This document shows, piece by piece, positions 531 through 56,623 of a DNA stretch of 64,000 nucleotides. The notes under the pieces were generated by a model. It was given only the letters and a program-made list of their open reading frames with translations. It was not told the origin of the DNA and ran no database searches. Positions within the stretch are counted from its first letter, which is position 1; every line of letters begins with the position of its first letter. The stretch covers positions 14,170,800 to 14,234,799 of the forward strand of contig NC_088643.1 of NCBI RefSeq assembly GCF_964019385.1. Direction: 5' to 3'. The position numbers were made by a program, and so were the translations under genes. The stretch is from Sycon ciliatum. Its lineage: Eukaryota > Porifera > Calcarea > Leucosolenida > Sycettidae.

Positions 531-1043
531 ATGACTATCCTAAGTCCATTCTGGGCCAATCGTCTAGGGAGCGTTCAAGCAATGCCAGCCAAGTCCAACG
601 TTTCATGCGTTCAATCTACTCATGCACCAGAAACTGAGTACAACGGCGACTTTACAAGAATATTGCCACGTGTTCGTACCCTACCACCAGTCGCATATCC
701 CGACGATATGACTTCTGCCAAAGGTTACTGCGGAGTCCTATTCAGTGGCTGGGTGCCCAAACAAGCGAAACCGGATAATAACATTAAGTGTCAGAATAAA
801 TGGGCTTGCAAACGGCTTAGCACGACACATGAAACCATTCCCACGCACATGTTCAGTTATGTGCTCTCTCGTCAAGTGGACGCCAAGCACATGTGCGACT
901 GCCAAGCCACCACATTCCATCCGCTTCATCTGAGACGTGCGAACAGTACAGAAGCATGGACGTTCCAGACAGCGAGTGACTCTTTTATCATCACTGGATA
1001 CTCTTGTGAACACAAGAAAGTGTGTCGAAAGTTTAACTGCTAA
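531..1043 (+). CDS. Copy A: cysteine-rich secreted protein, IL-17-like candidate (170 aa)
   Basis: Uninterrupted 170-codon frame, the most divergent full-length copy. The N-terminus is mildly hydrophobic (MTILSPFWA) with a possible cleavage after VQA near residue 17. Cysteines sit at 26, 67, 87, 93, 122, 124, 159, 165 and 170, and all are kept in every copy. The order W91, IP (residues 103-104), CDC (122-124), LRR (134-136) and GYTC (156-159) parallels the IL-17 fold, whose family carries W, RIP, CxC, VLRR and GCTC. That family consists of secreted cytokine dimers; membership here is inferred. The start was chosen for A at -3 and conservation in all copies. About 21 codons differ from copy B by replacement and only about 6 silently, yet no stop or frameshift has accumulated. 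Confidence 0.7.
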   Translation: MTILSPFWANRLGSVQAMPAKSNVSCVQSTHAPETEYNGDFTRILPRVRTLPPVAYPDDMTSAKGYCGVLFSGWVPKQAKPDNNIKCQNKWACKRLSTTHETIPTHMFSYVLSRQVDAKHMCDCQATTFHPLHLRRANSTEAWTFQTASDSFIITGYSCEHKKVCRKFNC

Positions 1044-1118
1044 GCATATGCAGGCAGCAACAGATCCAACTGTCATCCTTCTGGAATATGTCCATACTGA
1101 CCAGCTTGTAATTCAATA

Positions 1119-1365
1119 TCTCTCTCTCTCTCTCTTTCTCTCTCTCTCTCTCTCTCCCTCCCTCGCTCTCTCTCTCTCTCTCTCTCTCTCTCTCTCTCTC
1201 TCTCTCTCTCTCTCTCTCTCTCTCTCTCTCTCTCTCTCTCTCTCTCTCTCTCTCTCTCTCTCTCTCTCTCTCTCTCTCTCTCTCTCTCTCTCTCTCTCTC
1301 TCTCTCTCTCTCTCTCTCTCTCTCTCTCTCTCTCTCTGTCTCTGTCTGTCTGTCTCTCTATTCTC
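1119..1365. repeat. (CT)n microsatellite 3' of copy A
   Basis: About 245 bp of nearly pure CT, starting 75 bp after the stop codon of copy A. The homologous place in every other copy also carries CT (GA on the opposite strand), with lengths from about 30 to 245 bp, so this is the longest allele of an array-wide tract. Confidence 0.97.
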
Positions 1366-1431
1366 TGTATTACCTGAGTTATACGTCATTCTAATTTCCA
1401 AATAGCATAATTATTCTCTATTCGGATTATA

Positions 1432-1804
1432 ATGGTGTACTAGCTGTGCTAGTACTTGTTAGCAACAATGCGAACTAGCACACACACTGCACTGCATTGC
1501 TTTGTACTGCATTCAAGACTGACGTCATGCGCTTTGTTTTGCTGCGTAATCAAAAATGGCACCAGCCAATTTAGCGGAAAAGAAAAACAAATCTTGCTTG
1601 CCCTGTTTTGCTCTTCCAGACAACGAATCATGCTTCAGCAGTGTTTCTTTTCCTTTCGTAGCTTTGCTGCCAGCCCGAGTGTCACCTTGACACTGTATTT
1701 CTTCAGTATGTCTGACCTAATTGTCGACACTGTCAAGGCAATGCCTTGCCAAGCCCTCCGCGGCGAGCCTTCTCAGCGCGGCTTGAATCCGAAAGGAAAC
1801 TTAG
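1432..1804. other. Start of composite insertion; no gene recognised
   Basis: In copy B the sequence around 17430 is continuous where copy A breaks at 1432 and resumes near 6214, so 1432-6213 is inserted DNA. This first part contains a TGACGTCA palindrome near 1519, the consensus of a cAMP-response element, and a 121-codon frame at 1456-1821 of unremarkable composition. I see no recognisable protein. Confidence 0.5.
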
Positions 1805-1995
1805 TACAGTGGTCCCTCTAGAATCCGGCACCATTTGTGCCAGGGAAAATCTGCTGGATTAGGGAGGGTGCTGGATTAACAAATCTGATTTACTGCTGCA
1901 ATGTGCATGAAGAGGACATTTTGGCTACTGAAAATTGTGCTGGTTTATCGAGGGTGCTGGATTCTAAAGTGCTGGATTAGAGAGGGACGACTGTA
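1805..1995. mobile_element. pogo/Tigger-like MITE
   Basis: A 187-bp element (1807-1993) bounded by TA dinucleotides. The ends are inverted repeats: CAGTGGTCCCTCTAGAATCC on the left, and on the right the reverse complement reads CAGTCGTCCCTCTCTAATCC. CAGT.GTCCCTC termini and a TA target duplication are typical of non-autonomous pogo/Tigger elements of the Tc1/mariner superfamily. The interior is internally repetitive (GCTGGATT several times) and codes for nothing. Confidence 0.8.
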
Positions 1996-2242
1996 AAAGC
2001 ATTTTACAGGACCGTTTGCTGGCACAACTAGCCCTTGGTAGTTTTTTGAACTTTGTTTTACTTCGCAAAATCCAAACGGGAATTTCTTCCCAATGACAAG
2101 GTAGCGAAGATCTTAAGAGGGAAGAAAAGAGAGAGAGAGAGAGAGAAAAAAAGGAAAGAAAAAGTGTGTATGCACTGGAAATGATAGTCAGCTGGAAATC
2201 GGATCCATTGTCAAACATGGCATTTGCTACTGTTGCATGTAG
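1996..2242. other. Non-coding gap with GA-rich tract
   Basis: Between the MITE and the LINE fragment. It holds a purine-rich run near 2115-2165 (GAGA and AAAGGAAAG). No gene seen. Confidence 0.5.
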
Positions 2243-54660: not shown

Positions 54661-54864
54661 TTATTATTATTACGCACACACTCATGGCCAAGGCCAATCA
54701 AAGAGGAGGTGAGGGCGATTAAAGCCAGCCATGGCAAAAAAGAAGAAAGAAAAACAGGTGCAAATCAGAACAACAACAATAAAAGAAGAGATTGGGCTGC
54801 AAATCAAGTTGTATGATTAGGTTTACGGGAAGTGGTCCTAGAAATCACGAGCAAAGGCAGAAAG
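54661..54864 (-). mobile_element. Remnant of the D/E LINE in unit G
   Basis: Keeps the TAA tail and about 200 bp of LINE 3' end (CATGGCCAAGGCCAATCAA...), then jumps at 54864 to unit sequence GAGAACAAACGCACTGC. The rest of the LINE plus some flank was deleted. Confidence 0.8.
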
Positions 54865-55689
54865 GAGAACAAACGCACTGCATTCACGTCGTTTTTGCTC
54901 ACCGCATTTCAACCTGAATTATCTGCGACGTAATATCGGTGCAGATCAGACTCGGCTGGAGAGGCCAGGATTAATATTAAGAAGAGACAGCCAAAGGTTT
55001 ACAAGTTATGCGTGTTTTGTCCAACACAAAGAATTATAAGCATGGTACTTGCTGTTGAATCAGAACGTGCAAGGATTAGCACAACACTGACTGACTAGTT
55101 GCAGACATCCAACGACTTGATTCTTAGCTGCATCACGTGTTGGAATTCGCAGACAAACAGCCTTCCAACTTGGAAGGTTCTAATATTGGATTATAAATTT
55201 TGCAGTTTATAATTCTTATAATGTTCAGCTCCTAGAAAAGTGGGAGGCGAGTAGACCTGACCCATAAAAACGTGCATGATCAAAGACCGAAACGTCCAAT
55301 CGCTGCATCAAGGCGATCGTGGTGCTATACGTCTCTCAGTCATAGTGTCAAATCATCCCACTATGTATGCCCGACTTGACCAGTGGCGGGGAGCTCGTGG
55401 CCGGACACAAGCTATGGGATACATGGATACATTGACTGGGAGTTTCGGTCTTTGACTACCACTTTGTCAGTTTGTGGTGGGTCTGATCTTCTCATCTCCC
55501 TCCACTATAGGAGCTGCATCTGCGAATTAAACCCAGAGATTTCCATCGTACCAGCGGATGTGGAAATTTCGGTGAGACCGACTCCCACATGAATACTGAA
55601 TCCACCTTTAACGCAAAATTAATACAATCCTCACACAGCAATTAGTCCAATGACACGACAAAGTCCTTTTCTGCCGTTACTCAGAGTTT

Positions 55690-55890
55690 CGTAGACAACG
55701 AGGATTGTAGACAACTGTAATTTTTTTAAATAAATAGATCAGGAAGACAAAACGTCAGCAGTGACAGAAGCAATACTTTGAAATAGCTAGCAAGGTCCGG
55801 GGATTGAACAAGTGATGTATGATCACCCTATACTGCAGGCACATAGTCGCTACATAAAACTTAATAATATACTTCAAGTATTTATAATCC
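55690..55890 (-). pseudogene. CFCCC small ORF, broken in copy G
   Basis: Small indels and substitutions around 55735-55770 (AAGACAAAACGTCAGCAGTG) destroy the frame that is open in A to F. Confidence 0.4.
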
Positions 55891-55956
55891 GAATAGAGAA
55901 TAATTATGCAATTTGGAAATTAGAATGACGTATAACTTAGATAATACAGAGAATAG

Positions 55957-56037
55957 AGAGAGAGAGAGAGAGAGAGAGAGAGAGAGAGAGAGAGAGAGAG
56001 AGAGAGAGAGAGAGAGAGAGAGAGAGAGAGAGAGAGA
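55957..56037. repeat. (GA)n microsatellite 3' of copy G
   Basis: About 80 bp pure GA. Confidence 0.96.
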
Positions 56038-56110
56038 TTGAATTCCATGCAGGTCAGTATGGACCTATTCCAGAAGGAGGACAGTTGGATCTGTTGCTGC
56101 CTGTATTTGC

Positions 56111-56623
56111 TTAGCAGTTAAACTTTCGACACGCTTTCTTGTGTCTACAAGTGTATCCAGTGATGATAAAAGAGTCACTCGCTGTCTGGAACGTCCAGGC
56201 TTCTGTACTGTTCGCACGTCTCAGATGAATCGGATAGAATGTGATGGCTTGGCAGTCGCACATGCCCTTGGCGTCCACATAACGAGGGAGCACATAACTG
56301 AACATGTGCGTGGGAATGGTTTCATGTGTCGTGCTAAGCCGTTTGCAAGCCCAGCTATTCTGACACTTAACGTTATTATCCGAATCCGCTTGTTTGGGCA
56401 CCCAGCCACTGAATAGGACTCTGCAGTACTCTTCGTCAGGAGTCATATCGGCGGGATATGCAACTGGTGGTGGGGTACGAACACGTGGCAATATTCTTGT
56501 AAAGTCGCCGTTGTACTCGGTTTCTGGCGCATCAGTAGATTGAACGCATGAAACGTTGGACTTGGCTGGCATTGCTTGAACAATCCCTAGACGATTGGCC
56601 GAGAATGGACTTAGGATAGTCAT
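56111..56623 (-). CDS. Copy G: cysteine-rich secreted protein, IL-17-like candidate (170 aa)
   Basis: Intact frame with S8 in place of W8 in the N-terminal hydrophobic segment, D31, A55, D80, S81 and I132 (YPIHLRR). All cysteines kept. TATA at 57332-57340, donor at 57155. Confidence 0.72.
   Translation of the reverse strand: MTILSPFSANRLGIVQAMPAKSNVSCVQSTDAPETEYNGDFTRILPRVRTPPPVAYPADMTPDEEYCRVLFSGWVPKQADSDNNVKCQNSWACKRLSTTHETIPTHMFSYVLPRYVDAKGMCDCQAITFYPIHLRRANSTEAWTFQTASDSFIITGYTCRHKKACRKFNC

Follow-up and report, generated by a model that had tools for sequence, protein, structure and literature searches.

Tandem, partly inverted two-exon genes of a probable divergent IL-17-like family in the sponge Sycon ciliatum

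Introduction

Tandem expansions of IL-17 genes have been reported in marine invertebrates (PMC8353272). Several of these animals carry multi-copy IL-17 arrays, and the purpose of so many near-identical ligands is a standing question. In the purple sea urchin, the published account of SpIL17-1 gives eight genes in 59.8 kb, built of two exons of which the first codes for Met and Glu, with a mean amino acid identity of 94.9% among 11 genes (PMC5457136). According to the same account, SpIL17 proteins share eight conserved cysteines and were assigned by the Pfam family PF06083, SpIL17-4 is too divergent for BLAST, and SpIL17-1 transcripts are virtually absent without immune challenge (PMC5457136).

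Here we analyzed a 64,000-nt stretch of the Sycon ciliatum genome (contig NC_088643.1, here C1; C1:14170800-14234799), referred to as the window, in which an original prediction made from the sequence alone had described seven copies of one small secreted-protein gene. Our analysis makes it probable that these copies are a divergent IL-17-like cytokine array, in which tandem, partly inverted two-exon genes code for a secreted cysteine-rich product, are held by purifying selection and exchange segments. A literature search found no publication tied to this array, which is weak evidence.

Results

We checked each predicted frame directly. All seven 513-bp frames were found where they had been placed, namely copy A (531-1043) and copy B (16276-16788) on the plus strand, and copies C (21547-22059), D (31676-32188), E (42321-42833), F (48991-49503) and G (56111-56623) on the minus strand; each holds 170 codons, with no stop or frameshift. 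Copies B and C lie tail to tail and the remaining neighbors head to tail, as described originally. The duplication also includes the flanks, another claim that proved correct, with flank identity mostly about 88-98% and insertions in between. At the protein level, copy A is 86-89% identical to the other copies, and copy C is 97-99% identical to B and D-G. Some units are very similar in DNA, such as D and E (98.2% over 4 kb) and, over a stretch of 556 bp, C and D (99.3%). The count of seven holds for full copies, but the window also contains an eighth, truncated copy on the minus strand (62246-62371, about 41 codons of exon 2), and covers only half of a larger cluster.

The extent of this cluster emerged from searches of the 538-Mb, 313-contig assembly, in which all match counts from DNA and protein searches are lower bounds. 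The DNA search gave at least 15 matches, 14 spanning the whole query and one being the relic. Counted from copy A, the cluster comprises 14 genes in 106 kb, seven of the window type and seven of a second type, in addition to the relic. The second-type genes lie to the right of the window copies, one on the minus and six on the plus strand, and end at C1:14277487. They share 62-64% amino acid identity and 72-74% DNA identity with the window type, and the relic appears by eye closer to them (EE.CSHRVV...) than to copies A-G. Full-length frames without stops are present in all 14 genes.

The gene as we model it extends beyond the 170-codon frame, with one more exon and 11 more codons. Exon 2 starts 33 nt 5' of the originally predicted ATG, after a conserved acceptor GTGTTATAG, and the added in-frame codons read DRCSHRIVIVI (DGCSHCIVIVI in copy B). 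In copies C-G, an intron of 493-499 nt separates exon 2 from an ATG lying directly against the donor GTAAGAAG, and the TATA box TATATAAA begins 182 nt before this ATG. On the minus strand, the TATA box, the ATG ending exon 1 and the coding part of exon 2 lie at 22765..22772, 22588..22590 and 21547..22092 in copy C; at 32892..32899, 32715..32717 and 31676..32221 in copy D; at 43537..43544, 43360..43362 and 42321..42866 in copy E; at 50208..50215, 50031..50033 and 48991..49536 in copy F; and at 57333..57340, 57156..57158 and 56111..56656 in copy G. Copy A, on the plus strand, has the same layout: exon 1 ends with the ATG at window bases 1..3, directly on the donor, the coding part of exon 2 is at 498..1043, and the TATA box falls outside the window, in the locus L014. 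Splicing would join ...ACATG to GATCGTTGC..., giving a predicted product of 182 aa, MDRCSHRIVIVIMTILSPFWANRLGIVQA followed by MPAKS....

These signals recur beyond the window copies. The TATA box, the ATG on its GT donor and the AG acceptor align across the window copies and the second gene type, which keeps the TATA box, the ATG followed by GT[A/T]AG and the AG followed by GAGGAG, while much of its intron differs. Of the upstream blocks of at least 7 nt shared without change by all 14 genes, TGCTTACAGCTGGACATCA is the longest, and it adjoins TATATAAAG (the TATA box). No kB-like or AP-1 sites were found with four simple consensus patterns on the given strand, 0.8-1.0 kb upstream of the 14 genes. 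The gene model also bears on the claim of secretion, for which the 170-codon frame gave poor grounds; once exon 1 and the 11 further codons are included, the N-terminus MDRCSHRIVIVIMTIL... is fuller and, judged by eye, a plausible signal peptide, so that the protein is likely secreted.

Copy B departs from this layout. On the plus strand, it has TATATAAA at 14386..14393 and its exon 2 frame at 16243..16788, but the inferred start position, 182 nt further on (14568..14570), is ATA, whereas A and C-G all carry ATG there. Copy B could therefore start only at the internal ATG of the original frame, and it may be decaying. Its intron reaches 1,672 nt owing to an insert of about 1.15 kb (14713..15861) carrying a tRNA-Ser (15706-15779). 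The tRNA-Ser was identified by Rfam (41.2 bits), while tRNA-SeC was called by ARAGORN only; no clear target-site duplication was seen by eye around the insert.

The original prediction had argued from indels that the frame is maintained. We found no indels inside the frame in the seven-copy alignment, compared with 16 events in the flanks of the C-G alignment, counted in nine 250-nt bins (2,250 nt) within -1500 to +1500 and omitting the bin that contains a CT tract; at the flank rate, the Poisson chance of no indel in 513 nt is about 0.026. However, the nearest flanks are quieter, with two indels in 317 nt of intron and none in the 70 nt after the stop. Because the flanks close to the frame have so few indels, the contrast alone is weak.

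Substitutions carry the claim further. Among copies B-G, 12 synonymous and 12 nonsynonymous variable sites fall on about 110 and 400 sites, respectively (Fisher p 0.0015), the 12:12 count having been made by eye from the site list, with site 195 omitted or, in a second test, taken as synonymous. Between copy C and the second-type gene L024, the ratio of nonsynonymous to synonymous substitution rates (dN/dS) is 0.49 (p 0.0008). The tree length is 0.087 for exon 2 vs 0.199 for a piece of the intron, and at the intron rate the chance that no stop would arise is 0.016-0.028; a tree of half the length would raise it to 0.13-0.17. These results indicate that the frame is under purifying selection, as substitutions attest more than indels do.

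Constraint is uneven along the protein and among the copies. The pooled ratio of nonsynonymous to synonymous polymorphism among B-G is about 0.15 in codons 1-49, 3 in codons 50-93 and about 0.14 in codons 94-170, each based on few changes. Copy A stands apart from every one of B-G at 19 codons, which all lie between codons 51 and 164; at 17 of these the amino acid changes, an excess that is not significant (p 0.11). Its dN/dS against C, F and G is 1.25-2.47 over exon 2, likewise not significant (lowest p 0.076), and its difference from B-G in codons 50-170 (7.5%) is near that of the intron (6.4%). Relaxed constraint, diversification or exchange could explain the copy A excess. As for exchange, C, D, E and F group together against G in the promoter tree (100/99), whereas in the intron tree D, E and G form one group (95/95) and C pairs with F (100/99). 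Given these conflicting trees, the copies seem to have exchanged segments.

A protein search of the genome gave at least 27 matches, comprising the 14 cluster genes, the relic, L029, eight genes on C14 and three on C9. L029, also on C1, is 33% identical to the query (E 1.7e-11); the eight C14 paralogs have E values of 8.5e-6 to 0.11, and the three weak C9 matches 0.97-1.94. When one C14 protein was used as the query, at least 26 matches were obtained, of which 14 fall in a 50-kb stretch of C14 (two being pieces of one gene). The genes L030-L035, L037 and L038 mark a second array of distant paralogs (C14:12372421-12422608), with mostly long open frames and signal-peptide-like starts; the C14 genes used below are the eight fetched by the protein search.

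We then compared the family with IL-17 at the profile level. A genome search with PF06083 (IL17) gave 11 matches, four over the cut-off and all four on C5. Our IL17 set (alignment A3) consists of seven of these 11, the four over and three under the cut-off, and omits L046, L050, L051 and L052, which are short and weak. The seven genes each match PF06083 singly, and their joint profile reaches IL-17A (1.1e-5) and IL-17F (4.2e-5) in PDB. Two alignments represent the family: A2, with 15 rows, keeps L040 and L041 and only two window and two second-type copies, and A4, with 22 rows, omits L026 (the same protein as L025), L036 (the relic) and the weak L039, L040 and L041. When the 15-row alignment of the window family and its paralogs was compared with the IL17 set in hhalign, 74 columns were aligned at E 4.6e-6 and a probability of 86.5%; the elements that pair are C..W..C, P, C.C, LRR, W and the final G.TC. 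The 22-row profile scored 37.4 against the IL17 set; none of 900 column-shuffled decoys of that set (300 shuffled freely, 300 keeping C, and 300 keeping C and W) reached this score, the highest being 21.2. Eight cysteines are conserved in the family alignment, and four matches over the cut-off to SEFIR domains were found in the same genome. Four of the PF06083 matches (L042, L043, L044 and L048) lie within 80 kb of each other (C5:1524200-1602376), so that clustering extends to the plainer IL17 genes as well; several do not have the first Cys of the GCTC motif.

Several results weigh against an IL-17 assignment. Pfam returned no family at E<=10 for the seven window proteins and three versions of copy C, and PDB searches returned no match, either for the window proteins or for the 22-row family profile. 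Nine paralogs scanned in Pfam gave no IL17 match either, eight being empty and one showing a weak unrelated match. Three of the seven IL17-set genes are themselves below the Pfam cut-off. Taken by themselves, the 13 rows of window-type and second-type genes score 20.9 (6.3%), within the range that decoys reached against the 22-row profile, while L029 alone scores 23.6 (17%) and the C14 set alone reaches 85%; the link to IL-17 thus depends on L029 and most of all on the C14 genes. In copies A-G, the first Cys of GCTC is Tyr (GYTC/GYSC), leaving the set of four knot cysteines, which includes both of GCTC, incomplete, although five of the seven genes in the IL17 set, which come from this genome too, do not have this Cys either. 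AlphaFold2 models were unusable, with a mean pLDDT (predicted local distance difference test) of 28.4 for the full frames and 40.7 for the window-only domain. As the window and second-type rows score low by themselves and the C14 set scores 85%, the description as IL-17-related rests on homology via intermediates. In view of this indirect link, the missing PF06083 match and the altered GCTC, we prefer the term IL-17-like for the family and leave it outside PF06083.

Repeats and mobile pieces surround the copies. A CT-rich tract follows each stop, roughly 75 nt downstream, and is of very different length among the copies (1119-1359, 16865-16906, 31516-31599, 42167-42244, 48819-48914 and 55955-56037); in copy C the tract is too short to be picked up by the repeat finder. 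The lengths vary as if replication slippage marks the array. In the gap between A and B, three frames in 2246-7495 match reverse transcriptase (RVT_1 6.4e-13, 4.1e-4 and 6.1e-4) and are pieces of retrotransposons. A 22-bp tandem repeat in 22 copies lies at 5656-6135, and a 1.5-kb (TTG)n array at 7859-9408 yields long spurious single-amino-acid frames in both directions. A 188-bp unit is present in two copies at 51159-51536.

Discussion

Taking into account the gene model, the constraint and the profile alignment, we propose that a TATA promoter would drive each gene, with exon 1 supplying the 5' untranslated region and ending with the initiator Met, and exon 2 supplying the remainder. The product would enter the secretory route via the signal peptide, probably cut after ...VQA, and the mature protein would fold through the eight conserved cysteines. 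It would most likely signal via SEFIR-domain (IL-17-receptor-type) receptors, which the same genome is predicted to encode, and may have an immune role. The array presumably expanded by duplicating units spaced about 7-10.6 kb from each other, whose copies would swap segments while purifying selection preserves the frame. A more far-reaching reading, which we regard as tentative and rather doubtful, is that of an unrecognised IL-17-derived ligand family, in which the signal peptide and the C-terminal core stay conserved and diversification affects codons 50-93 and, in copy A, the mature part. If so, the animal would produce a set of ligands that differ slightly from one another. Since the standard domain profile misses this family, IL-17 repertoires may be undercounted, and as the cluster offers clear gene-model signals together with two types of gene and traces of exchange, dosage and ligand diversification could be separable in it.

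The absence of a direct Pfam match, the altered GCTC motif and the changeable codons 50-93 would also suit a secreted cysteine-rich effector, for example an antimicrobial or a decoy, of IL-17 ancestry but no longer signaling via SEFIR receptors. We consider this unlikely, since the core pattern of the IL17 set is kept and SEFIR receptors are present in the genome, neither point bearing directly on function. The spacing P...N....W.F.......C.....C resembles Spaetzle by eye, a likeness and not a test, and would fit another cystine-knot ligand (Spaetzle or neurotrophin type) whose similarity to IL-17 is convergent; yet the two Spaetzle (PF16077) matches in the genome both fall short of the cut-off (best E 2.15), Pfam finds no Spaetzle in the window proteins, and the IL17 profile alignment, made without a Spaetzle or NGF counterpart, beats 900 decoys, which makes convergence very improbable.

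The lost start codon of copy B, the truncated relic and the intron-like divergence of copy A in codons 50-170 are what a decaying, largely untranscribed repeat array would show, its frames being open since the copies are young. The substitution bias among B-G, the dN/dS between the gene types, the 14 stop-free frames and the promoter block invariant in every one of them argue against such decay, which we regard as hardly credible. Part of the copy number could instead come from unmerged haplotypes of a heterozygous animal, given the very alike D/E and C/D units. But the remaining copies are set apart by several per cent of sequence and by insertions, and an identity of 93-96% would be unlikely for alleles. 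With genes on both strands, two gene types and a second array as well, an assembly artefact of this kind seems quite unlikely. We therefore retain the divergent IL-17-like array as the favored explanation.

Among known systems, the SpTransformer (Sp185/333) genes of the purple sea urchin, which are immune genes, are described as clustered, with adjacent short tandem repeats and segmental duplications (PMC10887614, PMC5103432), as in this array. They belong to another protein family, and repeats are described in their coding exon, while none were found in exon 2 here. The likeness to vertebrate and invertebrate IL-17 lies in the cysteine-rich C-terminal domain with C..W..C, P, C.C, LRR and the closing G.TC (PMC4517768), together with predicted secretion, tandem expansion in marine invertebrates and a variable exon count, as far as these are covered in the published accounts (PMC4517768, PMC8353272). 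Unlike IL-17 cytokines, the family has no direct profile match, carries Tyr at the first Cys of GCTC and has extra C-terminal cysteines, and its stretch from C.C to LRR appears by eye shorter than in human IL-17A/F.

SpIL17-1, as far as it is described, differs in that its proteins belong to a family assigned by PF06083, which the window proteins do not match, and in that its expression has been shown, while our evidence comes from sequence. The likeness concerns the gene and cluster plan and is not a comparison of sequences. In that respect, the traits of the SpIL17-1 subfamily, namely two exons, a first exon coding almost only for Met and a tandem cluster, were all found in the predicted Sycon genes. 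The clusters are of similar size (eight genes in 59.8 kb vs seven in 56 kb in the window), the domain lies in exon 2 in both, exon 1 codes for Met and Glu there and for Met alone here, and near-identical copies and eight conserved cysteines are common to the two. The plan of the array is thus close to that of sea urchin SpIL17-1.

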